38,985 nt of DNA, from NCBI GenBank assembly GCA_001512545.1, contig LFSI01000084.1, positions 3,537 to 42,521 of the forward strand. Reading direction: 5' to 3'. Each line of letters begins with the position of its first letter. Position 1 is the first letter of the stretch. The position numbers were made by a program, and so were the translations under genes. This stretch comes from Clostridia bacterium DTU065. Lineage in GTDB: Bacteria > Bacillota > DTU065. Positions 430 through 15,756 of the stretch are shown here, one piece after another. Below the pieces are notes generated by a model. It did no database searches. It was not told the origin of the DNA and saw only the letters and a list, made by a program, of their open reading frames with translations.

Positions 430-2083
430 GAAGTTCTGGACCGTTTATAAAACGCTGATCAACGTTCACTTCGGCTTTTCTGCCATGAAGGACTTGTACT
501 TCAGGAGACGACAGCGGCTCTGGGAGCTGGCTTTAGTGGCATTGGCCTTGATCATTTCCATACCCTCCATAGCATTTGTGTTCGTCAACTTCGCTATCGG
601 GATCCTTGAGTTCGGTTCCATGGTAGGAGAACCTGAGATCGTACTGTCAGTTTCCATTGTAGCTGCTGCTGTAACGACTTTTACTTTTTCTTTGGGGTTG
701 GTGATCTCCGCATTCTACTTCAGCGAAGACATCAAGACTCTGATCCCCCTTCCGCTTAATCCTCTAGAAGTTCTCACCGCAAAGTTCGCTACGATATTTA
801 CCACCGAATACCTAGTTCTAGGGGTTCTTATCCTTCCTCTGTGGATTTACTACGGCATCAAACTCGGCGAACCAGCACTCTACTACGTCAAAGCCCTCAT
901 CGGCTTTGTGTTCCTGCCTGTGCTGCCTCTGGTCGCAGCTGCTCTCCTTGCGGTGGTTTTAATGAGAGTAGTCAACATCTCCAAACGGAAGGACCTCTTT
1001 ACCCTTTTGGGCGGACTGCTTCTGGTGTTTGTGATGATCGGAGGACAGCTATATCTGCAGATGCAGGCAATTCAAAACCCCGAACTGTTTATGGAGCAGC
1101 TCCTGGCGCAAACCACAAACTTCGTCAAGCTTTTCGGGAAGGCGTTTCCCCCTAGCGTTTGGCTGACAAGGGCGCTGGCAGACTCGGGAGCTTCGAGCTT
1201 TACTAACCTGCTTTTGTTCATTGGAACTGCTGCAGCCGGCTTTCTCATCCTCCTTCTGATCGCCGAGAAGGTTTTCTACAAGAGCGTGATTCTGGGGATG
1301 GAAGCAAGCCGAGCCAGTCGGAAAAAAGCCGCTGGCAATGTAGAGGTGGCATCGCGCTCGAAAGTCTTCTCTCTTGCTCTGTGCGATCTGAAGCTGTTTA
1401 TCAGAAATCCCTCTTACACGCTGAACGGCTTGATCAGCTATGTACTGCTGCCCTTTCTCCTGGTTTTCCAACAGCTGACCTTGAATGTATCCCTAGACGA
1501 GCTTGCGGGGTACTTTGGCGGCTTCCACCCTTCACTGATCATCGTGGTTTGTGCGCTGTACTTTGCAGTAATGGGCATGATGTCTTCGATGCCCTCAACG
1601 CCGTTTTCCAGAGAAGGCAAGTACCTCTGGAACTTGCGCTCTTTGCCGGTTTCAGCGTCTCAAGCGATGCTGGCAAAACTCGTTTCATCGCAGATTGTAA
1701 ACATCCTCGGCTCTCTTGTTGGCGTTGTGGCATTTGCGGTTATGTTTAAGCTGCCGCTTCTTCCGGTTTTTGCCGGCTGCATTTGGGGTATCGTGCTCTC
1801 CACAGGCACCTCCAGCTTATGGGTGTTCCTGGATCTTCTGCGCCCCATGCTCAACTGGACAAATCCCATAAAAGCCGTTAAATCCAACCTTAACGTGATC
1901 TTTTCCATGGTCGGCATGTTGGGGTTGATCCTTTTAGTTGGATCAAGAGCAGCCCACCATCTTAAGACTGGAACCTTGACCATGATGCTAGTTGAGTTTT
2001 CTGTAATCACCCTTATGGTTCTGGCATTGGGATACGGCCTCTGGAAGGCCTTTGGCGAAAACGCTTACAAATCCATAGTCTAG
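419..2083 (+). CDS. ABC-2 type permease, large membrane subunit
   Basis: This is the membrane partner of the ATPase just upstream, and the two stop/start regions overlap. The protein of about 554 residues has roughly a dozen hydrophobic segments spread over its whole length and a charged loop near residue 300 (RASRKKAAG). This matches the large 'putative ABC transporter permease' family of Firmicutes rather than the small six-helix ABC-2 permeases. I chose the GTG at 419 because AGAAGG ends 8 bases before it. A GTG at 410 is in frame but lies on top of that Shine-Dalgarno sequence. The substrate is unknown; an export role is inferred from the family. Confidence 0.88.
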   Translation: MRFKKFWTVYKTLINVHFGFSAMKDLYFRRRQRLWELALVALALIISIPSIAFVFVNFAIGILEFGSMVGEPEIVLSVSIVAAAVTTFTFSLGLVISAFYFSEDIKTLIPLPLNPLEVLTAKFATIFTTEYLVLGVLILPLWIYYGIKLGEPALYYVKALIGFVFLPVLPLVAAALLAVVLMRVVNISKRKDLFTLLGGLLLVFVMIGGQLYLQMQAIQNPELFMEQLLAQTTNFVKLFGKAFPPSVWLTRALADSGASSFTNLLLFIGTAAAGFLILLLIAEKVFYKSVILGMEASRASRKKAAGNVEVASRSKVFSLALCDLKLFIRNPSYTLNGLISYVLLPFLLVFQQLTLNVSLDELAGYFGGFHPSLIIVVCALYFAVMGMMSSMPSTPFSREGKYLWNLRSLPVSASQAMLAKLVSSQIVNILGSLVGVVAFAVMFKLPLLPVFAGCIWGIVLSTGTSSLWVFLDLLRPMLNWTNPIKAVKSNLNVIFSMVGMLGLILLVGSRAAHHLKTGTLTMMLVEFSVITLMVLALGYGLWKAFGENAYKSIV

Positions 2084-2161
2084 GACGGAACCTACGCCGA
2101 GGTTAAGGCAGAAGTTGGCAAAAGCACTTAGGGTAAGCTAGAATACTGGATTTAAACTTTC

Positions 2162-2197
2162 AAAGCGGATGTGCATCTTTTTGCACATCCGCTTTTT
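2162..2197. terminator. Bidirectional intrinsic terminator
   Basis: A perfect 14-bp stem (2162-2175 with 2182-2195) closes a 6-base loop. Ts follow on the plus strand, and the stem begins with AAA, giving Us on the minus strand. It sits between the convergent ABC permease and oxaloacetate decarboxylase genes and can serve both. Confidence 0.9.
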
Positions 2198-2204
2198 GAC
2201 CAGT

Positions 2205-3509
2205 CTATTTGAAAAGCTCGGGGAACATCACCCGCGAGAGCACGTCTTCGTCTGAAAGACTTGGGAACTGAGCTTTGGCCTTCTCCCAGCCGGGCTCAAG
2301 CCTGTCTGCGGGCCTTTCGGTCATTACCGGTTCATCGCCGATGATCTGCCTGCGGAACTCTTCATCGATTTCCCCTGGAGGCTTGCCGTATTCGCCTTTG
2401 AGGTAGTTTTTGGTGTCTACCAGAACGATCGACCACGGTCCCTTGGGCGATGCGACGTTCATCATCGCCTGGGTGCCGACCATCTGGCTCATAGGAGTCA
2501 CCAGCGGTGGATAGCCCAGCTTCTCGCGAACCCGGGGTACTTCGGCAAGGACTTCGTCGATTTTATTCTCGAGTTTCAACTGCTTCAGCTGATTGAAGAA
2601 ATTCGACAGCATGCCTCCTGGAATCTGGTAGCGCAGAATCTCTGCGTTGACCCAAGGCGGCACGATCTTGTCCTTATGCTTCTCCCGCACTTCTTTGAAG
2701 TGCTTGTTGACCTCCGAAGCCAGTTCGAAGTCGATCCCAGGATCGTACTCGGTTTCCATGAGCGTGGCCACGATCGACTCGGTTGCAGGCTGGCTGCTAC
2801 CGCTGCCTAGAGCTGAAAGAGATGTGTCAATTACATCAGCCCCGGCTTCGATCGCTTTGAGGTAGGTCATAGATGCAAGTCCCGTTGTCTCGTGAGAGTG
2901 GACCTGCAGCGGCAGGTCTACAGCCTGCTTGATTGCCCCGACAAGTTCGAAGGCAACATAGGGTTTGAGCAGCCCTGCCATGTCCTTAATGCAGATGGAG
3001 TCTGCTCCGAGATCTGCAAGTTTTTTGGCCATGTCTACATAATGCTGGATATTGTGTACAGGAGAAGTTGTATAAACAACGGCACCTTGGGCATGACCGC
3101 CGTACTTTTTCGTAGCTTTCATAGCGGTTTCCAGGTTGCGGATATCGTTTAAGGCGTCGAAGATTCTGATGATATCGATACCGTTTTCGATGCTTTTTTC
3201 GACGAACTTCTCCACAATGTCGTCGGGATAGGGTTTGTAGCCGAGAAGGTTCTGCCCCCTGAGAAGCATTTGGAGCTTGGTGTTTTTAATCAGCTTTCTC
3301 AAAGTTCTCAGCCTCTCCCAAGGGTCTTCGTTGAGGTAGCGAATGGAGCTGTCAAACGTTGCACCACCCCAGACCTCGAGGGAGTGATAGCCAATTTTAT
3401 CCAGCTTCTCTGCGACTTCCACCATCTCCGGTGTGGACATGCGGGTAGCCATAAAAGACTGGTGCGCATCACGCAAAATGGTCTCGGTTATACCAACTTT
3501 TCTTTTCAA
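2205..3509 (-). CDS. oadA: Oxaloacetate decarboxylase alpha subunit, carboxyltransferase domain
   Basis: The 434-residue protein is the DRE-TIM/pyruvate carboxyltransferase barrel that moves CO2 from oxaloacetate (or methylmalonyl-CoA with pyruvate in 5S-type enzymes) to biotin. Visible landmarks are the metal-binding start ETILRDAHQS, the catalytic lysine segment CIKDMAG and the metal-ligand histidines in VHSHETTG. Canonical OadA is about 590 residues and ends in a biotinyl domain. Here that domain is absent and is supplied by the separate carrier protein at 4673-5017. The start is a TTG with GGGAGG seven bases upstream. It is the last gene of a four-gene unit encoding gamma-like subunit, biotin carrier, beta and alpha. 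Confidence 0.92.
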   Translation of the reverse strand: MKRKVGITETILRDAHQSFMATRMSTPEMVEVAEKLDKIGYHSLEVWGGATFDSSIRYLNEDPWERLRTLRKLIKNTKLQMLLRGQNLLGYKPYPDDIVEKFVEKSIENGIDIIRIFDALNDIRNLETAMKATKKYGGHAQGAVVYTTSPVHNIQHYVDMAKKLADLGADSICIKDMAGLLKPYVAFELVGAIKQAVDLPLQVHSHETTGLASMTYLKAIEAGADVIDTSLSALGSGSSQPATESIVATLMETEYDPGIDFELASEVNKHFKEVREKHKDKIVPPWVNAEILRYQIPGGMLSNFFNQLKQLKLENKIDEVLAEVPRVREKLGYPPLVTPMSQMVGTQAMMNVASPKGPWSIVLVDTKNYLKGEYGKPPGEIDEEFRRQIIGDEPVMTERPADRLEPGWEKAKAQFPSLSDEDVLSRVMFPELFK

Positions 3510-3523
3510 GTAATTACCTCCCT

Positions 3524-4651
3524 TTATCCAAGTAATGCAAGAAGCATCCCTGCTGCAACTGCCGAGCCGATCACCCCAGCAACGTTAGGACCCATGGCAT
3601 GCATCAGGAGGTGGTTCTTCGGATCTTCTTCCTGCCCGAGCTTCTGCACTACTCTGGCAGCCATCGGCACAGCGGACACTCCTGCGGCACCGATCATCGG
3701 ATTGATCTTGCCTTTGGTAAGCTTATACATCAGTTTGCCCAGCAAAACCCCACAGGCTGTGGCCGTAGCAAAGGCAAACAGACCGAGGAATAGGATCTTG
3801 AAGAAGTCGAAACTGAGGAACTTGTCTGCGGATGCCTTAGTTCCCACAGAGATTCCCAAAAAGATGGTCACGATATTGATGAGGGCGTTTTGGGCCGTAT
3901 CGCTCAACCGATCGGTGACTCCCGTCTCTCTGAGGAGGTTCCCCAGCATCAGCATACCGAGGAGCGGTCCTGCAGACGGTACGATCAAGGTTCCCACAAT
4001 CGTCACCATGATCGGGAAGACAATCTTCTCTGTCTTGCTCACCTGTCTGATGGCTCCCATGCGCGCTTTGCGTTCTTCTGGAGTTGTCAGGAACTTAATG
4101 ATCGGTGGCTGAATAATTGGTACAAGTGCCATATAGGAGTAGGCAGCAATGGCGATGGGGCCTAGAAGCTCAGGTCCTAGTTTCGTTGTAAGAAAAATCG
4201 CCGTAGGTCCATCTGCACCGCCGATAATTCCGATAGAAGCTGCCTGCTGAGGGGTGAATCCCAAAAGCAGAGCGCCTAAAAACGTAATAAAAATGCCGAT
4301 TTGCGCGGCTGCTCCAAGCAGCATTGACTTGGGATTGGCGATCAGCGGACCGAAGTCGGTCATAGCGCCTATACCCAAAAAGATCAGCGGAGGATAGATA
4401 CCGTACTGGACCCCCAGTCCCAGATAGTACAAAAGCCCTCCAGGTTCTGTGGCTGTAGGTTCGGCAACCAGACCAGCCAAGGGGAGGTTGACAAGGAGCA
4501 TTCCGAAGCCGATGGGAATCAGCAAAAGCGGCTCGTAGTCCTTCTTGATTGCCAAGTAGAACAGCAGACATGACAGGGCAATCATGAACAGGTTGCCAAA
4601 GGTTAGATTAGCCAGACCGGAACTTTCCCAAAAACCGATTAGTTTTTCCAT
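3524..4651 (-). CDS. oadB: Na+-translocating decarboxylase beta subunit
   Basis: This 375-residue polytopic membrane protein belongs to the OadB/GcdB/MmdB family. It decarboxylates carboxybiotin and couples that reaction to Na+ export. The family hallmark [13 protein letters not shown] is present, and the length matches family members. A second glycine-rich conserved stretch near the C-terminus reads [16 protein letters not shown]. The start ATG is preceded by AGGTGAC. It lies 14 bases upstream of oadA and 21 bases downstream of the biotin carrier, so the genes are surely cotranscribed. The adjacent pyruvate-type carboxyltransferase makes oxaloacetate the most likely physiological substrate. 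Confidence 0.95.
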
Positions 4652-4672
4652 ATTCTGTCACCTGTCTGTTAT

Positions 4673-5017
4673 TTATTTAATCGTCATGATCGTCGCACCA
4701 CTGTCGAGATTGTCGCCTTTTGCGACCTGGATGGATTCAACTACCCCTGCGCTTTCCGCAGTCACTTCGGTATCCATCTTCATAACCTCAACAATGGCCA
4801 CGACAGTGCCGTCTTCGACTTTGTCACCGACTTTTACCAGGATGTCTTTAACCAGCCCGCCCATAGGCGCCACAACCGGCGTTCCCGTAGCCTGTAGGGT
4901 CGGTTCTTCCTTCACCACCGCTTCACTGACCTTCTCCACAACCGGACTCCCCGATTTCTCGCTGACTGTTACTTCATAGCTTTTGCCGTTGACAGTCACA
5001 ATGTACTCTTTCTTCAT
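4673..5017 (-). CDS. Biotin carboxyl carrier subunit of the Na+ pump
   Basis: The 114-residue protein ends in a biotinyl/lipoyl domain with the biotinylation motif EVMKMDTEV, whose central lysine is the attachment site. The N-terminal 30 residues form a short beta-rich segment. An Ala/Pro-poor linker separates it from the APMGG start of the biotinyl fold. It carries CO2 from the OadA barrel to the OadB membrane subunit. Comparable free carriers exist in glutaconyl-CoA and methylmalonyl-CoA decarboxylases (GcdC, MmdC). The start ATG has AAAAGGAG upstream. A biotin ligase must act on it, but none is encoded in the window. Confidence 0.95.
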   Translation of the reverse strand: MKKEYIVTVNGKSYEVTVSEKSGSPVVEKVSEAVVKEEPTLQATGTPVVAPMGGLVKDILVKVGDKVEDGTVVAIVEVMKMDTEVTAESAGVVESIQVAKGDNLDSGATIMTIK

Positions 5018-5032
5018 AAGCTCAGTCTCCTT

Positions 5033-5272
5033 TTACCTGTTTGATTCGTAAGCTTGTATGGCCGCCGCGACGACTGCAATAAGCTCGCCATCGTCATCTA
5101 AGTCTGCACGTGGCGCTGCTTTTTGCAGTGTTGTAGTGCTGGCCTTTTCTTTAGGCTTATCTTTGACAAAAACCCTTACCAAGTCGATAAGGAGAGACAG
5201 TAGATAGAGGGTTAAGAACACCACTATTAAGCTGACAAATGAGACCTCAAGGCCAAAAACTAGGTTTTCCAT
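5033..5272 (-). CDS. Gamma-like small membrane subunit of the Na+ pump (OadG family)
   Basis: This is a 79-residue protein with one transmembrane helix near the N-terminus (about residues 7-30) followed by a charged, Lys-rich linker. The C-terminal segment has the acidic DLDDDGELIAVVAAAI pattern typical of OadG/MmdD-type subunits, which assemble and stabilise the decarboxylase. I chose the ATG at 5272 because GAGGTGAT sits just before it. An upstream extension to 5350 is open but adds a charged, non-conserved tail with no ribosome binding site. It is the first gene of the decarboxylase unit, directly after the hydrogenase operon terminator. Confidence 0.82.
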   Translation of the reverse strand: MENLVFGLEVSFVSLIVVFLTLYLLSLLIDLVRVFVKDKPKEKASTTTLQKAAPRADLDDDGELIAVVAAAIQAYESNR

Positions 5273-5358
5273 TCGATCACCTCGCTGCAACTGGGTTAAC
5301 ATACTTACTCTATTTCTAGCTTCAAAGCGGATATCCTTGCCAAACAACAAATACCCGA

Positions 5359-5388
5359 AATAACGCCGGGGAAACCCCCGGCGTTATT
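5359..5388 (-). terminator. Terminator of the hydrogenase operon
   Basis: A 13-bp GC-rich perfect stem (5359-5371 with 5376-5388) closes a 4-base loop and is followed on the minus strand by TTATTT-type sequence. It lies directly after the hydA stop codon and before the first gene of the decarboxylase unit. Confidence 0.85.
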
Positions 5389-7392
5389 TTATACCAAAGC
5401 TAGTTTATTCTTGATAAGTGCGACTAACTCCTGCGGTTTGAAAGAACTGGCGTTAATAATTTCATCACCGATCTTAACCGACGGAGCTCCTGCGCAGTTT
5501 TCGAAACAGAAAGTAGCTTCAATGCTCACTTTGTCAGCGAGATCTTCTGCTGCGATGAGTTCTCTCAGCTGCTGCATAGTGTCGTAGGAACCTTTGAGGT
5601 AGCAGGAAGTTCCCACACAAACCCCAACGTAGAGCTTTTCCTCTCCAGTTTCGCTGAGAGTGATGTTTTGACCTTTGATGCGGCGTCTAGACTGGTAGGT
5701 GGTGTGGAGGTTTTCGTGAGCAATGTCGCTTCCTGGTTCTCCTAGCCACTGACTGTAGAGCTTCTGAACGATGGGGTTCTGCTGGCTCTTTCTCAGCTGT
5801 TGGAGCTTATCGGCTTCGTAGAGACCCTTCATCCGCTGCTCGCGGGTGGTGGTATCGTTTGGCGTAGGTTGACCGGCGCCACCGATGCAGCCTCCGGGGC
5901 AAGCCATAACTTCAATGAGGTCGTAATGCACCTCGCCAGATTGAATCTTGGCAATAAGATCTTTGGCATTTTTCAAACCGTTTACTACGGCGATCTTCAA
6001 TTTGGCTCCGGAGATCTCCACTTCGGCTTCCTTAAGGCCTGTAAGACCCCTTGTTTGCTTGAAATCTACAGCATCGATTTCTTCGCCGGAAATAATCTCC
6101 GCTGCGGCTCTAAGAGAAGCTTCTGCTACGCCGCCGGAGCTGCCGAAGATTACACCTGCTCCAGACGTGAAGCCGAAAGGCATATCCAAGGCTTCCACAT
6201 CGAGATTGGCGAAATCGATTCCGGCTTCTTTAATCATGTTGCCGATCTCCTGGGTGGTAAGGACCAAATCTACCTCAGGCGTATCTCCCGATGAAAACTC
6301 AGGGCGTTTGGCTTCGAACTTCTTAGCGGTACAAGGCATGATTGAAATGAAGAAGATGTCTTTGGGATCGATGTTCATCTCTTTGGCCAGGTGGTTCTTG
6401 ACCAGTGCTCCGAACATACCTTGAGGTGAGCGGCAGGAAGACAGATTATCTAAAAGCTCCGGATGGAACTGCTCCACGTACTTGACCCAAGCAGGGCAGC
6501 ACGAAGTAAACTGAGGCAGCTTTTCAGACTTTTTGAAGCGCTCCACGAACTCGTTGGTTTCTTCCATGATGGTAAGGTCTGCGGTAAATGAAGTGTCGAA
6601 CACTTTATCAAAGCCTAGAAGGCGCAAGGCTGAAACCAGCTTGCCCAGGTTGATCTCACCGGGCTTTGCACCGAACATCTCGCCGATCGCGACTCTAACT
6701 GCAGGCGCGATCTGGGCGATTACCACTTTACCGGGGTCGTTAAGCGCGGCCCAAGCAATATCCGTTTCGTTCTTGATGGTTAAAGCTGCTGTCGGGCAGA
6801 CTGCTGCACACTGACCGCAGCTCACGCAGTCGACTTCCTCCAAGCCTTTGCCGAAAGCTGGCGTTACCTGAGCTTTGGATCCCCTGTGGGCAAAATCCAA
6901 GACGCCGATTCCCTGAATCTCACGACAGACCCTGACGCAGTCGCCGCAGAGAATGCACTTATTGGGATCCCGCACAATCGACGGGCTCGAAAGATCTAAA
7001 GCCAGGGTCTCGTCCCTGCCGCCAAAACGGACGTGCTTGATGCCGAAACGGTTGGACAGGTCCTGCAGTTTGCATTGACCCGACTTGGTGCATGTGGTGC
7101 ACTCTCTGTCGTGGTTGGCCAGAAGGAGCTCCAGAGCCATTCTGCGGATGTTGCGGACTCTTGGAGTGTTGGTCCTGACCACCATGCCGTCTCTTGGGGG
7201 TGTGGAACACGCTCCGACGATCCCCATACCGTCTACTTCCACAACGCACATGCGGCAAGCGCCGTATACGCTGAGTTCCGAGTGGTAGCAGAAAGTAGGC
7301 AGTTCGATACCTGCAAGTCTAACGACTTCTAGGACGTTTTTTTCATCTGTAAACTCTACAGGTCTTCCGTCTATATACAAGGTGTTACCCAT
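5389..7392 (-). CDS. hydA: NADH-linked [FeFe] hydrogenase, catalytic subunit (group A3, electron-bifurcating type)
   Basis: The 667-residue protein produces H2 using electrons from NADH and reduced ferredoxin together with HydB and HydC. Domains in order are: [2Fe-2S] ferredoxin fold (Cys 35, 46, 49, 62), His-Cys [4Fe-4S] site (H94, C98, C101, C107), two [4Fe-4S] clusters (C146-C156 and C189-C199 regions), and the H-cluster domain. The H-cluster domain has TSCCPAW (C298, C299), MPCTAKKFE (C354) and MACPGGC (C498, C502). From about 580 comes an extra thioredoxin-like [2Fe-2S] domain with CVGTSC and CFENC. All five H-cluster cysteines are intact, so it should be active. AAAGGAGG, inside the last codons of hydB, precedes the ATG. 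Confidence 0.97.
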   Translation of the reverse strand: MGNTLYIDGRPVEFTDEKNVLEVVRLAGIELPTFCYHSELSVYGACRMCVVEVDGMGIVGACSTPPRDGMVVRTNTPRVRNIRRMALELLLANHDRECTTCTKSGQCKLQDLSNRFGIKHVRFGGRDETLALDLSSPSIVRDPNKCILCGDCVRVCREIQGIGVLDFAHRGSKAQVTPAFGKGLEEVDCVSCGQCAAVCPTAALTIKNETDIAWAALNDPGKVVIAQIAPAVRVAIGEMFGAKPGEINLGKLVSALRLLGFDKVFDTSFTADLTIMEETNEFVERFKKSEKLPQFTSCCPAWVKYVEQFHPELLDNLSSCRSPQGMFGALVKNHLAKEMNIDPKDIFFISIMPCTAKKFEAKRPEFSSGDTPEVDLVLTTQEIGNMIKEAGIDFANLDVEALDMPFGFTSGAGVIFGSSGGVAEASLRAAAEIISGEEIDAVDFKQTRGLTGLKEAEVEISGAKLKIAVVNGLKNAKDLIAKIQSGEVHYDLIEVMACPGGCIGGAGQPTPNDTTTREQRMKGLYEADKLQQLRKSQQNPIVQKLYSQWLGEPGSDIAHENLHTTYQSRRRIKGQNITLSETGEEKLYVGVCVGTSCYLKGSYDTMQQLRELIAAEDLADKVSIEATFCFENCAGAPSVKIGDEIINASSFKPQELVALIKNKLALV

Positions 7393-7394
7393 TA

Positions 7395-9287
7395 TTACGC
7401 CTCCTTTATTGCGTTAAATGCGCATGTTTCTACACAAGCACCGCACTTGATGCATGTTAGTACGTCGATAGTGTGTGCTTCCTTGACCTTTCCAGAAATG
7501 GCGCCAACAGGGCAAACACGTTTACACCTTGTGCAACCTTTGCACAGTTCTGGATCGATTGTGTAGACTTTCAGCGCCGAGCAGACTTTAGCGTCGCAGA
7601 CTTTGTTCTCGACGTGACGCAGGTACTCGTCTTTGAAGTACTTCAAAGTTGTGAGTACGGGATTTGGCGCAGTTTTGCCGAGACCGCACAGAGATCCGTC
7701 GCTGATAGTTGCGCCGAGTTCTTCGAGAAGCTCAAGGTGCTCAGGCGTTCCCTTTCCGCCGACGATATCTTCGAGGATCTCCAGCATGCGCTTGGTGCCT
7801 TCGCGGCAGAGAACGCACTTACCGCAGGACTCAAACTGAGTAAAGCTCATGAAGAAGCGAGCTACCTCAACGATACAGGTCTTCTCGTCCATGACTACAA
7901 GTCCGCCGGAACCGATCATTGCACCAACCGACTGTAGTGAGTCGAAGTCCAGGTTAATGTCCAGATGATCTTCGGTGAGGCATCCTCCCGAAGGACCGCC
8001 GATCTGGACGGCTTTGTACTTGTTCCCGCTGAGGATTCCACCGCCGATATCGAAGACGATCTCTCTTAGAGTGGTTCCCATAGGAACTTCGATGAGACCG
8101 GTGTTTGCAACCTGGCCTGTAAGAGCAAAGGTCTTGGTTCCGGGGCTGTTTCCTACGCCCACACCTCTAAAGTACTCGGGACCCTTTGAAAGAATGATTG
8201 GGATGTTTGCCAAAGTCTCAACGTTGTTGATAACTGTTGGGCAGCCCCAAAGACCGCTGTCTGTAGGATACGGCGGTTTGGGATTGGGCATACCTCTCTT
8301 GCCCTCGATTGATGCGATCAAAGCCGTCTCTTCTCCGCAAACAAAGGCTCCCGCGCCTTCTTTGATGTGCACGTGGAAGGAGAAGTCCGACCCGAGAACG
8401 CTGTCGCCGATGATGCCGGCATCGATGGCTTCTTGAATGGCTATGCGGAGCCTCTTGATGGCCATAGGATACTCTGCGCGAACGTAGATGTAACCTTCAT
8501 CGGCACCAATGGCGTAAGCGCTGATGGCCATACCTTCGATCACTCTGTGGGGATCACCCTCCATAACAGAGCGGTCCATAAATGCACCTGGGTCGCCTTC
8601 GTCGCCGTTGCAGATGACGTACTTCTTGTCGCCTTTAGCGTTTTTGCCAAACTGCAACTTGCGTCCGGTGGGGAAGCCTCCTCCCCCGCGGCCTCTAAGA
8701 CCTGCAGAGATAATGTCATCGATTACTTCTTGAGGAGTCTTGGCCAGTGCGCTTTCCAGACCTTCGTAGCCGCCGTTGGCCACGTACTCTTCTAGAGACT
8801 CGGGATCGATAACGCCGCAGTTGGCCAGAACTCTTCTCTGCTGCTTTTTATAAAAAGGAATCTCGTGTTCCTTAGCAAATTTCTCTCCGGTTGTGGGGTT
8901 TTCATAGATAAGTCTTTCCACAATCCTGCCACCGACGATGGTCTCATTGATGATCTCTTCAACGTCGTCTAGCTTTACGTGGGTATAGAGAATATCCTCA
9001 GGTTCGATTCTCACCAGGGGGCCTTGAGCGCAGAAACCGTGACAGCCGCTCTTGGCGACTTTAAATGACTTATTATTATTGCAGTTATCTTCTTCATCGA
9101 GCACGCAATCTACGTTAAGTCCCTTTTCAGTTAATAGACGTTTAAACTCTTCATAAATCTCCAAAGACCCGCTTGCCACGCAGCCGGTTCCTGCGCAGAC
9201 AAGGATTCTCAGCTTACTTTTTTCCAGTTCCTGTTTGCATTTTTCTCTGAAAGCTTTGAGATCTTCAGTGGAACGCAGTTTTACCAT
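7395..9287 (-). CDS. hydB: NADH-binding flavoprotein subunit of bifurcating hydrogenase (NuoF-like)
   Basis: The 630-residue protein oxidises NADH and is the site of flavin chemistry in the HydABC complex. It has an N-terminal thioredoxin-like [2Fe-2S] domain (CAGTGC near residue 32, later CHGFC), then the NuoF core. The core carries the FMN-binding loop GRGGGGFPTGRKLQF and the NADH loop GADEGYIYVRAEYP. Next come the [4Fe-4S] motif ESCGKCVLCREGT and a C-terminal pair of [4Fe-4S] clusters (CKGCTRC and CIKCGAC). Its ATG overlaps the hydC stop by one base (TGATG) and its stop lies two bases before hydA, so translation is tightly coupled. The C-terminal ferredoxin domain separates it from simple respiratory NuoF. 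Confidence 0.97.
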   Translation of the reverse strand: MVKLRSTEDLKAFREKCKQELEKSKLRILVCAGTGCVASGSLEIYEEFKRLLTEKGLNVDCVLDEEDNCNNNKSFKVAKSGCHGFCAQGPLVRIEPEDILYTHVKLDDVEEIINETIVGGRIVERLIYENPTTGEKFAKEHEIPFYKKQQRRVLANCGVIDPESLEEYVANGGYEGLESALAKTPQEVIDDIISAGLRGRGGGGFPTGRKLQFGKNAKGDKKYVICNGDEGDPGAFMDRSVMEGDPHRVIEGMAISAYAIGADEGYIYVRAEYPMAIKRLRIAIQEAIDAGIIGDSVLGSDFSFHVHIKEGAGAFVCGEETALIASIEGKRGMPNPKPPYPTDSGLWGCPTVINNVETLANIPIILSKGPEYFRGVGVGNSPGTKTFALTGQVANTGLIEVPMGTTLREIVFDIGGGILSGNKYKAVQIGGPSGGCLTEDHLDINLDFDSLQSVGAMIGSGGLVVMDEKTCIVEVARFFMSFTQFESCGKCVLCREGTKRMLEILEDIVGGKGTPEHLELLEELGATISDGSLCGLGKTAPNPVLTTLKYFKDEYLRHVENKVCDAKVCSALKVYTIDPELCKGCTRCKRVCPVGAISGKVKEAHTIDVLTCIKCGACVETCAFNAIKEA

Positions 9288-9796
9288 CAGTTATCACCTT
9301 CTGCCTCTTTTTGTTTAAGCTGGTCGATTATCAGTTCGATTGCTTCTTCGGTAACCTGTCCGTAGACTTTGTCGTTGATCACCACAGCCGGTGCTAGTCC
9401 GCAGGCTCCCAAACAGGAAACGGTTTGGACCGTGAAACCGAGGTCATCTGTGGTTATCTTGCCTGCGGCAAGCCCCACTTTTCTACGGATGGCTTCAAGA
9501 ATTGGCGATGAACCTCTGACGTGGCAGGCAGTTCCGTCGCATACGTTGATGACATACTTGCCCTTTGGGTTTAGCGAAAACTGAGCGTAGAAGGTCGCCA
9601 CACCGTAGACAGTCGCAGGAGAGATATCCAGTGCTGTTGCGATGTAGGTCAGGATCTCTTCTGGCAGATACCTGTACTCCTCTTGGACCTCCTGCAGAAT
9701 AGGGATGAGCATTGACTCTTTGGCTTCGTATTTTCTAACGATTTCGTTGACTTTTTCGAAGCTGCGCTGTGCCTTAGGCACTGTAGTGTTTGCCAC
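9287..9796 (-). CDS. hydC: [2Fe-2S] subunit of bifurcating hydrogenase (NuoE-like)
   Basis: This 169-residue protein of the NuoE/24-kDa family is the third structural subunit of the hydrogenase. It has an N-terminal helical part followed by a thioredoxin-like fold. The four cluster cysteines lie in CDGTACH and CLGACGLAP. I chose a GTG start at 9796 because AAAGG sits nine bases upstream. The ATG at 9805 lies directly on that ribosome binding site. The gene follows the phosphatase gene by about 27 bases and overlaps hydB by one base. Confidence 0.95.
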   Translation of the reverse strand: MANTTVPKAQRSFEKVNEIVRKYEAKESMLIPILQEVQEEYRYLPEEILTYIATALDISPATVYGVATFYAQFSLNPKGKYVINVCDGTACHVRGSSPILEAIRRKVGLAAGKITTDDLGFTVQTVSCLGACGLAPAVVINDKVYGQVTEEAIELIIDQLKQKEAEGDN

Positions 9797-9823
9797 GATA
9801 ATCATCCTTTCTCTATCTCAACT

Positions 9824-10981
9824 CTAGTAGTAAACGATGTTGATCTCTTTGCCGAGGTTTTGCAGAATATCGCTGAGTTCCTTGACTACTTGGTTTTTCA
9901 GAGCCAAGTAGTGCGGTAGATTGGGATTTTGGTGGGCGGGGTTGATGGCCTGACCCACGTGAAAGTCGACTCTATCGGCTTTCAGGAGCATCCTCAGTAG
10001 CTGGCTTGCTCCGTCCCTATCCCTGATCAACTGGGCTTTGCCCTGTGTTTCGCGGGCCAAGTCGATGGCTTTACAGAGAGTAATGATGCCTTCTGTAACC
10101 AGATCGATCCCCTCAATCTCGCCCATGGGCGGCTCCCCTGTAAGGCTATCTAAGTTGACCTTAAGTTCTTTTCCCAGCTCCCTGGCAATGATGGTGGAAG
10201 TTGTTCCGCCGCAGACGGCCTTTTTACCCGGCTTTTTCAAGAAGTCTTCGACAAACTCTCTGTCGCGAGTCTTCTCTTGAGGCGGGCCGATGGCTATCGC
10301 AAGCTGTCTGGGTCTGCGAACTCTGAGGCACATCACGGTGGTATCGTCTCCGATCTTACTGCGGTAAAACTCTCGGCATCTATCCCTGATGTGCTCGGTG
10401 ATATCCCTGGCCTCAAAGCGCTCTCCTCTGGTGGCGATGATCTCTTCGCACTCTCGTGCGATTTCTTCCTTCGGCCAGCCCAAAGGACGAATGCCGCCAA
10501 TCCCGGCGTTTTCCACTCCATCGCTGAAAAAGACCAAAACGTCGTTTTCCTGGAGGCTGAAGCTGGTTTCGTAAATCGTTTTACCTTCAATAACCAGCTC
10601 CCGTCTTGGCAGCTGGTTAAGCTTTCCTTCTCTAAAAAACAGAAGTTCGGGATTGTCGCTTTCGGCTATGTACAGCCGCCCATCTCTAAACACCTGAACT
10701 GCTGTAAAAGTCGAGTATGCAATCCCTCTAACTTTGCACTTCGGCAGAGTTGCAATCATGGTCTGCACAACTTCCTGCAGCGTAGAGCCTTGTGCTAGCA
10801 TTGTGGAGGCAATCCTTGCTGTGAGAGTTGCCAGAATATTGGCTTTTACTCCGGAGCCAAGACCGTCGGACAAAACGGCAATAAACGACTCAGGCGTTCT
10901 GCGGACGGCAACATAGTCGCCGCAGAGGGTCTCGCCGGTTTTTGTCAGACTCTCGTGCTGCTGTTCTATAAAAAAACCCAC
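9824..10981 (-). CDS. SpoIIE/PP2C-type phosphatase linked to hydrogenase operon
   Basis: This is a 385-residue cytoplasmic PPM-family phosphatase. The SpoIIE-like N-terminal half has the metal-binding aspartate signatures DYVAVRR, LSDGLGSG, FFSDGVENAG and IGDDTTV. The C-terminal 150 residues form an extra domain, starting near the CGGTTS motif, that I cannot assign. The start is GTG with AGGTGA six bases upstream. Genes of this type accompany PAS-containing group C [FeFe] hydrogenases ('phosphatase-linked' subgroup C3), and this one directly follows such a gene. A plausible role is relaying an H2 signal from the sensory hydrogenase by dephosphorylating an unknown partner; that role is inference. 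Confidence 0.9.
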   Translation of the reverse strand: MGFFIEQQHESLTKTGETLCGDYVAVRRTPESFIAVLSDGLGSGVKANILATLTARIASTMLAQGSTLQEVVQTMIATLPKCKVRGIAYSTFTAVQVFRDGRLYIAESDNPELLFFREGKLNQLPRRELVIEGKTIYETSFSLQENDVLVFFSDGVENAGIGGIRPLGWPKEEIARECEEIIATRGERFEARDITEHIRDRCREFYRSKIGDDTTVMCLRVRRPRQLAIAIGPPQEKTRDREFVEDFLKKPGKKAVCGGTTSTIIARELGKELKVNLDSLTGEPPMGEIEGIDLVTEGIITLCKAIDLARETQGKAQLIRDRDGASQLLRMLLKADRVDFHVGQAINPAHQNPNLPHYLALKNQVVKELSDILQNLGKEINIVYY

Positions 10982-10991
10982 AGCTTGTCAC

Positions 10992-12665
10992 CTAACCTTT
11001 AATGATGCGAATCAGCTGGTCTAGTGTCACTTTGGTTTCTGCCGTCGTTTCGCCGAGGAGGCTGGCAATTTCCTGGGCTACCCGCATCTGTTTATTGATA
11101 ACCTCCTGAGCTCTCTCGAGAGTTTCCTTTCTCAGTTCGGAAAGCTGATCTTGCTGCCGCGATTGCTCGGTGATATCGGCAAAAATAGCGATAACCACCT
11201 GGGACTTCGGCACGTAAAACACAAAATGCCTTACTTTGAGGCCATAAGCTGGGTACTCCACGTTCCTTGCAATAAGCCGCTTTGTCTCCAGCACCTCCCT
11301 GAAGATGCCGTCATCCACTAAAGCAGAAACCTTCTTCCCTTTCAGCGTCTCCTGCTTGCATTGAAACATCTTCTCTGCTGCGGGATTGATGGTAACAATC
11401 CGCAAATCTGTATCGCAAACGATGATACCGTTGGGTGTGGCTTGAATGATCACATCGTTCATGGACTCTGCACGGGTCTTCATGTAGGGAATGCACATTT
11501 CAATCTCTGCGGCTCCCCGGAAGACGGCTTTCGCCTTTTCGCGGCAGGTGTCGTAGCCGCAGGCACCGCAGTCGAGCTCATCGGCTTTGGTACGCTTGCC
11601 CATTGAGGCGAGAATCTCCTCAAGCTGTTTGGGCGTGGGTACTGTAACCTCCACTGGTTTTTCCACAAACTCCCGGGAGATGTCCTCAAGCTGAACGCTC
11701 TGCTTATCTCCTTCGGAAGCACTGCGGGCAAACTGCAAAACTCTCTCTTTTCTTTCGTTTAAAGTTAAAGTGTCAGGCACGCCTGCTCCATTGATGCAGC
11801 CTCCCTGACATAGCCAGATCTCTATAAACTCCACTTCTCGGCCGATTCTCTGCTGCTGCATTTTTTTCAGGAAATCCATGCAATTTTCAAAGCCACTTAC
11901 AACTGCACTTCTCGTATCGAAAGGCACGTCGTACCCGACCGCCTTGGAAAAAGCACCTTCAATCCCCATGGTGCGCTCGCGAAACTCCGCTTTTAAGGCA
12001 ATCTCACCGTCTTTGCGGTCGGTGTAAGCTTTGAGATCGCCTCCAACCTCTCGGAGAAGGGTCATGAGCTCGGACAGAGTCAAAACCGCATCCACCTCGG
12101 GCTCTTTGAGAATCTCTGCTTTTTGAGCCTCACAAGAGACTGCATAAACCAGGTGTTCCCCTGGAAACAGACCCCTGAGGTACTTGCTGTGGGCAATCAC
12201 AGGAGATAGTACCGGAGCCAGACGATTCTTCAGCTCGGGGAAGTACTTCTCAACTAGACTTACCACACCAGGACAGACGCTGGAGATCAGCGGTCTATCT
12301 GCTTGACGGTAGTAGTCCAGAATGGGTCCTGCGGCTTCTGCCGACTCAAAAACTCTACTGAACCCGGTTTTGTGGAGGAGCGACGCAAACTCTTCTTCGC
12401 TTTCCTCTATCGCACCGGGGAACGTAGGCGGCAGGGACAACACAACTGGCTTGGGTCCCTTCAGAAGTTTTTTTACATAATCTATCTGATTGAAGACGCT
12501 GCGGGCATTTTGCGGGCATACAGGTATGCACCTGCTGCAGAGTACGCACCTTTCCTCATCGATCTGAGCCCGCCCATCTAAAACGTTGATAGCTTTAACG
12601 GGACAATAGCGCACGCATTTGTAGCAGTCGCGGCAGTTAGCCTCGACGGTTTTAATCAGTCCCAT
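10992..12665 (-). CDS. Sensory-type [FeFe] hydrogenase with Fe-S and PAS domains (group C, HydS-like)
   Basis: The 557-residue protein starts with two [4Fe-4S] clusters (Cys 11-21 and 40-50), followed by a reduced H-cluster domain. H-cluster ligands remain at C131 (SSVCPG), C178 (VSCEAQK), C286 and C290 (CQGGC). The proton-transfer cysteine of catalytic enzymes (C298 in the HydA of this window) is Val130. Next come a CxxC-GYxxC-type [4Fe-4S] domain (C366, C369, C374, C391), a PAS domain (about 400-500) with an ADITE end, and a C-terminal coiled coil. This architecture is typical of putative H2 sensors, not of bulk H2 producers. AGGAGG precedes the ATG. It sits between the [2Fe-2S] protein and the phosphatase, its probable signalling partners. 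Confidence 0.92.
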   Translation of the reverse strand: MGLIKTVEANCRDCYKCVRYCPVKAINVLDGRAQIDEERCVLCSRCIPVCPQNARSVFNQIDYVKKLLKGPKPVVLSLPPTFPGAIEESEEEFASLLHKTGFSRVFESAEAAGPILDYYRQADRPLISSVCPGVVSLVEKYFPELKNRLAPVLSPVIAHSKYLRGLFPGEHLVYAVSCEAQKAEILKEPEVDAVLTLSELMTLLREVGGDLKAYTDRKDGEIALKAEFRERTMGIEGAFSKAVGYDVPFDTRSAVVSGFENCMDFLKKMQQQRIGREVEFIEIWLCQGGCINGAGVPDTLTLNERKERVLQFARSASEGDKQSVQLEDISREFVEKPVEVTVPTPKQLEEILASMGKRTKADELDCGACGYDTCREKAKAVFRGAAEIEMCIPYMKTRAESMNDVIIQATPNGIIVCDTDLRIVTINPAAEKMFQCKQETLKGKKVSALVDDGIFREVLETKRLIARNVEYPAYGLKVRHFVFYVPKSQVVIAIFADITEQSRQQDQLSELRKETLERAQEVINKQMRVAQEIASLLGETTAETKVTLDQLIRIIKG

Positions 12666-12669
12666 CAGC

Positions 12670-12921
12670 TTAACCTCCTAAAACGCTGACCACTCTGTTT
12701 AGGAAAATCTCCGGCACGCTTTCTGGCGTGACGCCCAAAATCAGCTCGTCGTCGATCTTGATAGACACGCCGTCAATACACCGGCCCAAGCAAAACGCAC
12801 CTGTTAAAAACACTTCTTGATCCAACTTGCGAGAGCTGATCTCTCTTTTAAATGCCTGTACCACATCATGGGCACCTTTCAGGTGGCACGAGCTGCCAAC
12901 ACAAACTTGAATGGAGATCAA
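12670..12921 (-). CDS. Small thioredoxin-like [2Fe-2S] protein
   Basis: The 83-residue protein is a single thioredoxin-like [2Fe-2S] domain with cysteines in CVGSSC and CLGRC. It closely resembles the C-terminal domain of the HydA encoded five genes downstream (CVGTSC, CFENC, VKIGDE versus IKIDDE). It is the first gene of the hydrogenase operon and lies four bases upstream of the sensory hydrogenase. The start is TTG with GGAGG about eight bases upstream. It probably exchanges electrons with the HydS-like protein or the HydABC complex; the partner is inferred from position. Confidence 0.88.
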   Translation of the reverse strand: MISIQVCVGSSCHLKGAHDVVQAFKREISSRKLDQEVFLTGAFCLGRCIDGVSIKIDDELILGVTPESVPEIFLNRVVSVLGG

Positions 12922-12999
12922 CTTTTAAACCTCCGATCATCTATCTTGACCAACAGTCAGAGCCTAAAAACCGCTTAATTTCAACGTTTAAAGGTCTGT

Positions 13000-13017
13000 T
13001 TGTAACAAATTTAACAA
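13000..13017. promoter_or_regulatory. Candidate Rex (NADH-responsive repressor) operator
   Basis: On the minus strand the 18-base site has a perfect half site TTGTTAA, a 4-base AT spacer, and GTTACAA. It matches 12 of 14 defined positions of the clostridial Rex consensus TTGTTAAN4TTAACAA. It begins about 6 bases downstream of the predicted transcription start of the hydrogenase operon, where a bound repressor would block RNA polymerase. Rex releases DNA at high NADH, and an NADH-consuming hydrogenase is a classic target. No rex gene is in the window. Confidence 0.6.
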
Positions 13018-13029
13018 TCTCTATTTTGA

Positions 13030-13058
13030 ATTATAGCACAGGGCTTAGGCAATGGCAA
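13030..13058 (-). promoter_or_regulatory. Sigma-A promoter of the hydrogenase operon
   Basis: On the minus strand there is TTGCCA (13058-13053) and a perfect TATAAT (13035-13030), separated by exactly 17 bases. The predicted start site is near 13023, about 100 bases before the first gene. Confidence 0.85.
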
Positions 13059-13072
13059 CCATAGTCAGCCCT

Positions 13073-13510
13073 CTAAACCTGCTCAAGCTTTTCCAGGTCG
13101 TTTTCGCACAAAACCGGGTACTTTTCTCTCAAGAGTTTTGCGGTGAGACCCTGACCTTCAACCTTTCTCCCTTGAAACGTTCCGTCATACACAAAATGGA
13201 CGCCACATGACGGGCTGCCTTCTTTGAGGATCACCACATTGGGACCGATCTTCTCGGCGATCTGCAGAGACACCTGTGCGCCCCTGACAAAAAACTCCGT
13301 GACATCCTCACCGTCTACGTTGATCACCCTTTCGCCTACGATCTCTGCAGGTTTTCTCGGCGTTGAAAGTCCGCCGAGCTGCTCAGGACAGAAGGGGATG
13401 AGCAGGTACTCCTTTGATAGAGCCAGCACTTCTGCGTTCTGTTTTCCTGTGCCGTCGTACCTTGTAGGAACGCCCAAAAGGCAAGCGGACACAAGGGCGA
13501 TTTTTTTCAC
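13073..13510 (-). CDS. DUF523 family protein
   Basis: The 145-residue protein shows the DUF523 signature: VSACLLGVPTRYDG at the N-terminus, CPEQLGGL in the middle and GSPSCG near residue 100. Several cysteines are conserved, which suggests metal or Fe-S binding, but the biochemical function of the family is not established. The start is a GTG at 13510 that overlaps the thiN stop codon as GTGA, with AAGGAG nine bases upstream. An upstream in-frame extension overlaps thiN and is not supported. The coupling to thiN need not reflect a shared pathway. Confidence 0.9.
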   Translation of the reverse strand: MKKIALVSACLLGVPTRYDGTGKQNAEVLALSKEYLLIPFCPEQLGGLSTPRKPAEIVGERVINVDGEDVTEFFVRGAQVSLQIAEKIGPNVVILKEGSPSCGVHFVYDGTFQGRKVEGQGLTAKLLREKYPVLCENDLEKLEQV

Positions 13511-14127
13511 TCTACACCACTCCTTAAATGCACTACCAGAAGCTCGCCAGTTTCCACAGTGACGCTGCAACTGTCGCCCAAGAACACATTGGAGATTCCC
13601 CTAGTGCTAAAGGGGTGCAGCGTTTCGCTTTTTAGCGGATACTCCAATCCCCATGTAGTAACTCCTTCGCACTTTCCACCTACAGGTATTAGGGAAAGCA
13701 AGTCGCCTTTTTTGCCGAAAATGTCATTGGACTTTTCTGCAAAAAACACCCTCCCCCACTTCTCCTCAAAAACGCACCGTACCTCATGTCTGCGGGCGAT
13801 GCCCAGGATATTGGCGAGTGTATGGTCGAGTCTTCCTCCTAGGAAACCAACAAGAGTAACTTGCGACGCTCCGAGCTCCACAGCCTTGTCTATAGCGAGC
13901 TCGCAGTCTGTGGCATCTTTCCTGGCGGGATATTTTTCCTGCTTAATATGTTCGGGATACGGCACAAAAGTCGAGTCTCCATCGCCAATGATCCAATCAG
14001 GTTCGATTCCCCACTTCAGCGCCAGGTTATAACCGCCATCGGCACAGACGACCACGTCCCATGAGCCTTCGGGACCGCGGTCCCAAAGCAGCGTCTCGGG
14101 GCTTCCCCCGAGGAGCAGAATATGCAC
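13507..14127 (-). CDS. thiN: Thiamine pyrophosphokinase
   Basis: The 206-residue enzyme transfers pyrophosphate from ATP to thiamine, giving the cofactor thiamine diphosphate. Family landmarks are CADGGYN, the PDWIIGDGDS loop, DATDCELA and LGGRLDHTLANI, all with their acidic residues intact. The start is GTG with AAGG-GTGAT-like Shine-Dalgarno sequence about seven bases upstream. In many Firmicutes thiN directly follows rpe; here rpe is 15.7 kb away with an accessory block between. The gene has its own promoter at 14230-14258. No TPP riboswitch is recognisable upstream, as expected for a kinase of the salvage step. Confidence 0.95.
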   Translation of the reverse strand: MHILLLGGSPETLLWDRGPEGSWDVVVCADGGYNLALKWGIEPDWIIGDGDSTFVPYPEHIKQEKYPARKDATDCELAIDKAVELGASQVTLVGFLGGRLDHTLANILGIARRHEVRCVFEEKWGRVFFAEKSNDIFGKKGDLLSLIPVGGKCEGVTTWGLEYPLKSETLHPFSTRGISNVFLGDSCSVTVETGELLVVHLRSGVE

Positions 14128-14182
14128 AAGATCACCTTCTTTGCTTGTCCTGCCAACTTACAGAAGCTCTCCGGCTACACAG

Positions 14183-14204
14183 AAAAAGGGGCTGTCCCAG
14201 TCCC
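14183..14204 (-). terminator. Small hairpin with T-run in the thiN leader (possible attenuator)
   Basis: Read on the minus strand, GGG-A-CTG / CAG-CCC can pair around a 3-base loop and is followed by five Ts. It lies between the thiN promoter and the thiN start, so it could end some transcripts early. The stem is short and has a bulge. Confidence 0.35.
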
Positions 14205-14229
14205 TCAGTGTCTACTTCGCTTGCTGCAG

Positions 14230-14258
14230 AGTATAAAAATCGCAGGTATATAGTACAA
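14230..14258 (-). promoter_or_regulatory. Sigma-A promoter for thiN
   Basis: On the minus strand there is TTGTAC (14258-14253) and TATACT (14235-14230), separated by 17 bases. The predicted start is near 14223, leaving a leader of about 95 bases before the thiN GTG. Confidence 0.7.
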
Positions 14259-14261
14259 TTC

Positions 14262-14415
14262 TTGCTCCTTCAACCGGACTCCTTGTCCTTACCCCTCAGT
14301 ACCGAACACCAGAGGGTTCAACGTAAAGGCTGTGACTCGCTTCCCACACGGCCTAGCACGGTTTCTTCGCGGAAGGACCGATCAGTCACCGCAAGCAGAA
14401 ACCTTAAAGTTCCCA
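14262..14415 (-). ncRNA. Possible structured RNA, family unknown
   Basis: On the minus strand at least three hairpins can form in series. The first has GGTTTCT paired with AGAAACC plus inner GCGG/CCGC and GACT/GGTC helices. The second pairs GGCCGTG with CACAGCC (one mismatch). The third pairs CCCTC with GAGGG. The strand is uncertain because the helices also form on the other strand. No clear promoter was found directly upstream. It does not show the invariant motifs of SRP RNA, tmRNA, RNase P RNA or common riboswitches. Confidence 0.3.
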
Positions 14416-14420
14416 TGGCA

Positions 14421-14453
14421 AAAAAGGAGAGGAGGAGTTTTCCCCCCTCCTCT
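14421..14453 (-). terminator. Terminator of the sugar-binding protein gene
   Basis: On the minus strand a 10-bp stem with one G-U pair (14453-14444 with 14437-14428) is followed after CC by a run of Ts. It lies 10 bases after the stop codon of the gene at 14464. Confidence 0.85.
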
Positions 14454-14463
14454 TTCACGTTCT

Positions 14464-15756
14464 TCAGTTGTTGTATGCCGCGCTTCTTCTGTCCATTTCC
14501 TCCAGGAAGCGCCGGTACTCGGTTTTTCTGCGGTTCATATCCCGATTCATTTCTTCTGCTGCTTCGAGAATGGCTTTCTTCGGATCCTCATTTTGCAGCA
14601 CTACTTTTTGAATGGCCAGCACGATATAGCGGTACTGAACCAAGTTATTGATAGCGTACGGCACAGGCACGCAGGCTTCTATCTGGTTGAAGTACACCTG
14701 TTTAATGTCTTCAGGGAGGTTAACCTGCATCATAGCTTCTTTATTGGCCGGAAGCCACATATATCCAGAACTCTTAGCCAGAATCTCGTTGGCCACTTTG
14801 GTCAGAACATCACTGCCCAAGAACCACTTGAGAAACTGCCAGGCTTCTTCCTGCCTCTTTGAGTAAGCGGAAATGCCCAGAAGGACGCTGCCTGCAGACG
14901 AGCCGTTGTGAAGGGTTCCGTCCCGTTCAACTCCTGGTACCATGTCGACCTTCCACTTGCCGGTCAGCTGAGGTGCCGCCATACTCAAGTTGGTGTAAGT
15001 CCACAAACCATCAACATAGGTTATCTGTTCGCCGCTGATAAACGGCGTTATCCCAGCAAGAGCTTTCGGGAAGTCGTGCTTGGTGAACAGCTCAACGTAG
15101 TTGATAAAACCTTTGATGGACTCGGGCTTGTCTAGAGCACTGGAAAAACCGTCGGGATTGAAGAACTGACCTCCATGCTGGGTCATCACCGTATAGCATG
15201 CCCACAGCTCATCGAAGTTCATAAAAGCAAAGGTCTTGCCTCTTGCCAGGGCTTTTGGCTGTGCGTTTACGATCTCCTCCCATGTCTTGGGTATGTCCAT
15301 GCCCATCTCCGCTAAAATGTCGGCACGGTAGGCTCCCACAAGTGCCGCCACATCCATGGGAAGGGCAAAACGGCGGGCTTCAAAAGTAAACGGTCCCATT
15401 ACCGACGAGAAGAGCTTCTTTTCCAACTCTGCGTACTCTTCAGGCTTGAAAGCACCCAGATCGATTAAGCCACCCCGTACGGCAAAGTCGGCAATTTCAG
15501 CACCGAAACTGAAGATATCCGGCGTATCTCTGCTGGCAAGGGCTAAGAGGGACTTGGTATAGTAGTCTCCCCAAGCCAGCGGAACGATATCTACTTCGAT
15601 ACCTGTCTCGGCAGTGAACAGATCGTCCACCAACGCCTGACCGATCTGCCCCATTTCGTTACTCCACCCAACTAACCAGACCTCCAGCGGTTTGGCGAAG
15701 ACGCATACGCTGCTTAGCACCAACAGGAGGAAAAGCAAAACCAACTTCCTTTTCAC
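14464..15756 (-). CDS. ABC sugar transporter substrate-binding protein (orphan)
   Basis: The 430-residue protein belongs to the family 1 extracellular solute-binding proteins (MalE-like). It has a signal peptide MKRKLVLLFLLLVLSSVCVF, cleaved probably after VFA. Typical features are LLALASRDTPDI, the KTWEEI segment, and AWQFLKWFLGSD near the C-terminal lobe. The C-terminus is an unusual charged helix rich in Glu and Arg. The lone Cys in the signal is not in a lipobox, so the protein should be released rather than lipid-anchored. A GTG at 15756 is preferred, because the GTG at 15765 sits on the Shine-Dalgarno sequence. No permease or ATPase genes are nearby. A paralogue lies at 27152. The sugar is unknown. 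Confidence 0.9.
   Translation of the reverse strand: MKRKLVLLFLLLVLSSVCVFAKPLEVWLVGWSNEMGQIGQALVDDLFTAETGIEVDIVPLAWGDYYTKSLLALASRDTPDIFSFGAEIADFAVRGGLIDLGAFKPEEYAELEKKLFSSVMGPFTFEARRFALPMDVAALVGAYRADILAEMGMDIPKTWEEIVNAQPKALARGKTFAFMNFDELWACYTVMTQHGGQFFNPDGFSSALDKPESIKGFINYVELFTKHDFPKALAGITPFISGEQITYVDGLWTYTNLSMAAPQLTGKWKVDMVPGVERDGTLHNGSSAGSVLLGISAYSKRQEEAWQFLKWFLGSDVLTKVANEILAKSSGYMWLPANKEAMMQVNLPEDIKQVYFNQIEACVPVPYAINNLVQYRYIVLAIQKVVLQNEDPKKAILEAAEEMNRDMNRRKTEYRRFLEEMDRRSAAYNN

Follow-up and report, generated by a model that had tools for sequence, protein, structure and literature searches.

An 18-bp palindrome on the minus strand of Clostridia bacterium DTU065 DNA, located at positions 13017-13000 of the window (by which we mean the whole analysed stretch of 38,985 nucleotides), is very probably an operator of Rex, through which this regulator would repress the genes hydS-phosphatase-hydCBA and from which rising NADH would release it. 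Redox control by Rex, as the preliminary description had proposed for the hydS-hydABC operon, is supported by the analysis presented here; binding of Rex to the site as a repressor, its release by NADH and the joining of the genes in a single transcript are our inferences.

Promoter, candidate operator and operon

The top promoter-like match in the region searched (1500-14500) is found on the minus strand, in the intergenic stretch 5' of the hydrogenase genes. A promoter scan places a -35 hexamer TTGCCA at 13053..13058 and, after a spacer of 17 nt, a -10 hexamer TATAAT at 13030..13035, which is preceded by TGC and corresponds to an extended -10 element (11/12 match for the two hexamers). This TATAAT is present in all five genomes of the family set, which comprises the window's genome (G000) and G001, both of one genus, as well as representatives of three other genera (G002, G003 and G004); the operon was located in the four further genomes by protein search with HydS. 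Starting 12 nt past the -10 box, the predicted Rex operator TTGTTAAATTTGTTACAA (13000..13017, minus strand) would extend from approximately +7 to +24 if transcription begins 7 nt past that box, and with this predicted start it lies at the promoter or overlaps it. It is of the 18-bp palindrome type known for Rex operators, in which six bases separate two TTGT(T/G)A half-sites; direct reading gives agreement with TTGTTAANNNNTTAACAA at 12/14 positions, and in the genome mismatch scan it deviates from the 12-base core at a single position. A point against the assignment is that the half-site farther from the promoter is imperfect, reading GTTACAA in the window and TCACTA or TCACGA in the relatives. 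Both the promoter (13058-13030) and a Rex-like 18-base site just past its predicted start had been claimed in the preliminary description, and both are confirmed.

The first gene downstream, preceded by a GGAGG ribosome-binding site recognized by direct reading (12930..12934, minus strand), encodes an 83-aa thioredoxin-like [2Fe-2S] protein with a TTG start at 12921 (12670..12921). It is followed on the same strand by hydS, encoding a 557-aa sensory hydrogenase that carries an [FeFe]-hydrogenase domain and a PAS domain (10992..12665), by a gene for a SpoIIE-type (PP2C-like) phosphatase of 385 aa (9824..10981), and by hydC (NuoE-like, 172 aa, 9287..9805), hydB (NuoF-like, 630 aa, 7395..9287) and hydA (667 aa, 5389..7392). 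The gaps that precede hydS, the phosphatase gene, hydC, hydB and hydA are 4, 10, 18, -1 and 2 nt, respectively. The earlier view of HydABC as an NADH consumer holds, as HydA scores above the cut-off of the NCBI model for NADH-dependent [FeFe] hydrogenases of group A6. A weak terminator-like hairpin in the gap between hydA and the oad genes (5354..5370, minus strand) possibly marks the end of the unit. Beyond it, also on the minus strand, lie genes for a sodium-pump decarboxylase (gamma, biotin carrier, beta and alpha; 2205..5350), which might belong to the same Rex-controlled transcript as the hyd genes. The same gene order downstream of hydA is seen in G004 (L169).

Rex protein, candidate targets and the CRP/FNR family

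The rex gene that the proposal presupposed was found: the window's genome encodes one full-length Rex of 213 aa (L001:1027-1668), which scores above the NCBI curated cut-off (E = 3e-86), contains the Rex DNA-binding domain and the NAD-binding domain, and is closest to 3wg9 among solved Rex structures in the PDB (E = 1e-62). This gene sits on a different contig from the hydS-hydABC operon, which itself is devoid of rex, and all four family relatives encode Rex as well. Upstream of rex only a weak site, and none that is strong, was found in the five family genomes, as regards possible autoregulation.

A motif built from the hyd sites gave 20 forward matches against 6 in the control across the five family genomes. 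Since the search pattern was drawn from the hyd sites, this collection of targets is partly circular; an independent textbook matrix reduces the circularity, but leaves some of it. The counts per genome given below come from ortholog searches combined with this matrix. The recurring intergenic matches precede adhE, the nicotinate phosphoribosyltransferase gene, a gene for a PTS_EIIC_2 membrane protein, a Na/Pi symporter gene and a second hydS operon. Rex-type sites are found at adhE in all three genomes that have the gene (G002, G003 and G004), each accompanied by a second site over the -35 hexamer. As adhE was not detected in the window's genome, which is 93% complete (nor was it found in its congener G001), the hydrogenase may be a main NADH outlet there. 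The site upstream of nicotinate phosphoribosyltransferase (for example L010:2578-2595 and L157:2490-2507) is clear in three of the five genomes and weak in a fourth, while no Rex-type site was found at this position in G001. The PTS_EIIC_2 membrane protein gene is preceded by such a site in 5/5 genomes (L018:842-859, L186, L187, L188 and L189), and we know of no Rex target of this kind. At the Na/Pi symporter gene, Rex-type sites occur in two genomes (L172:6753-6770, TTGATAATTTGTTAACAA; G001, TAGTTAAATAAATAACTA) and are absent from the other three. The upstream site of a DUF4914 gene (L011) is fair in G000 and weak in G001.

The second hydS operon, present in G002-G004 (L158:3338-8711, L167:4437-10132 and L168:5734-11139) with Rex-like sites upstream, is composed of genes for a small [2Fe-2S] protein, HydS2, a SpoIIE phosphatase (for which the ORF list of L168 gives no clear reading), another small [2Fe-2S] protein, a hydrogenase and Rex. 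Its hydrogenase is a monomeric [FeFe] enzyme of group B, and its final gene is a diverged second rex.

Half-sites that are six bases apart are also characteristic of CRP/FNR sites, whose TGTGA-N6-TCACA is near the Rex form TTGTGA-N6-TCACAA, and the palindrome could be read as the operator of a regulator of that family. This would agree with the Crp-type helix-turn-helix proteins encoded in all five family genomes and with the resemblance of the conserved right half TCAC to CRP sites. However, the left half is invariably TTGTTA in the five genomes, and neither TGTGA-N6-TCACA nor TTGAT-N4-ATCAA was found at the site. Moreover, adhE, the nicotinate phosphoribosyltransferase gene and hydS2 carry the motif of the hyd site, their sites reading TTGTTA-N6-TAACAA; they are targets of the Rex type, and the second hydS operon holds its own second rex. 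Classical Rex targets include alcohol dehydrogenase and NAD synthesis genes (PMC6391272). Both the genes that carry the motif and the TTGTTA half, which does not vary, agree better with Rex, and we consider control by a CRP/FNR-family protein improbable.

Conservation of the site and the role of chance

When the textbook Rex matrix is run over the window, TTGTTAAATTTGTTACAA ranks first with a score of 14.8, the runner-up reaching 9.2. The significance of this single site is weak, since of 30 windows simulated with matched dinucleotide composition, one holds an equally good site. In the genome as a whole, TTGTTA-N6-TAACAA with at most two mismatches occurs 91 times versus 109 times for the reversed control; given this lack of bulk enrichment, genome-wide counts are unable to decide whether the site is real. 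Some of the one-mismatch sites of the window's genome fall within genes (L006, L008 and L019) and were discarded. Taken alone, the candidate operator is therefore hardly more than what chance could provide within an A+T-rich intergenic stretch, and it is conservation across genomes that makes it convincing.

In all five family genomes a Rex-type site begins 10-12 nt past the TATAAT of the hydS-hydABC operon, and in the four relatives of the window's genome the sequence at this distance reads TTGTTAAAnnTnTnACnA. In the ungapped five-genome alignment on the site, 13 of the 18 columns are invariant, at the same place past the -10 box. By contrast, the next three 18-nt blocks contain 1, 0 and 0 invariant columns, and even with each sequence sliding three bases the downstream blocks reach at most 3/18; the invariant columns are confined to the site, and the flanks have drifted past recognition. 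Independent enrichment is seen in distant hydS operons (n = 43, from Firmicutes and other phyla): a strong site, defined as at least 11/12 within 600 nt upstream, precedes 10 of them; elsewhere in these loci, 15 of 749 windows hold one (Fisher p = 1.4e-7). Examples are found in L032 (TTGTGAAAATATTCACAA) and L038 (Fervidicola; TTGTTAAAAATATAACAA). These observations leave a fortuitous match very little probability. The conserved stretch could instead act in the mRNA or as initially transcribed sequence (in start-site choice, escape or stability): it is predicted to fall within the 24 leading nucleotides of the transcript, and its distance from the -10 box is nearly fixed. However, the same palindrome stands at other distances from other genes, lying over the -35 hexamer at adhE, and it has the form of a palindrome in DNA whose four central bases are free, so that we regard this explanation as highly unlikely.

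Proposed mechanism and known systems

Studied Rex proteins are on DNA at low NADH and off it as NADH rises (PMC5707799; PMC8457756), and we apply this analogy to the window. At low NADH, Rex bound to the operator just 3' of the -10 box would block RNA polymerase at the hydS-hydABC promoter. As the NADH/NAD+ ratio goes up, Rex would leave the operator, and the derepressed operon would yield the hydrogenase along with HydS and the phosphatase, the NADH-using hydrogenase then shedding excess NADH as H2. The gene of an H2 sensor would in this manner be placed under an NADH sensor, and an uncultured family of Firmicutes would join those in which hydrogenase genes respond to the balance of NADH and NAD+.

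In Caldicellulosiruptor bescii, a Rex-type palindrome is likewise located upstream of the Hyd operon, which has five genes in that organism, and gel shifts support Rex binding there (PMC6391272). This is a different lineage, and the general consensus quoted in that work is TTGTGAANNNNTTCACAA, whereas the window has TTGTTAA, with binding predicted from the DNA sequence. In Clostridium thermocellum, DAP-seq places Rex_2471 at the hydrogenase operon Clo1313_1885-1881; the window shares the consensus TTGTTAANNNNTTAACAA with this species, and a hydrogenase operon is a conserved target in both, as a prediction in the window. The Rex regulon of C. thermocellum spans most of glycolysis (PMC8457756). 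Because Rex control of Hyd operons is known in these two species, the case in the window is correct but ordinary.

More tentatively, one operon may read both NADH, via Rex, and H2, via HydS and the phosphatase, while two Rex proteins might divide two hydrogenase systems between them in G002-G004 and Rex might also control the PTS_EIIC_2 protein; we find this extended scheme possible, though rather doubtful. The hydS unit of Ruminococcus albus presumably includes a rex gene, as does the second hydS operon of G002-G004, whereas the operon of the window differs from the R. albus unit in the presence of hydABC and in having rex on another contig. The R. albus unit resembles the window in bringing together a PAS-containing sensory hydrogenase, a phosphatase and a hydrogenase (Zheng et al., 2014, in PMC5707799). 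A PAS-bearing HydS encoded in one operon with another hydrogenase is also found in Thermotoga maritima (PMC10055695), as in the window.
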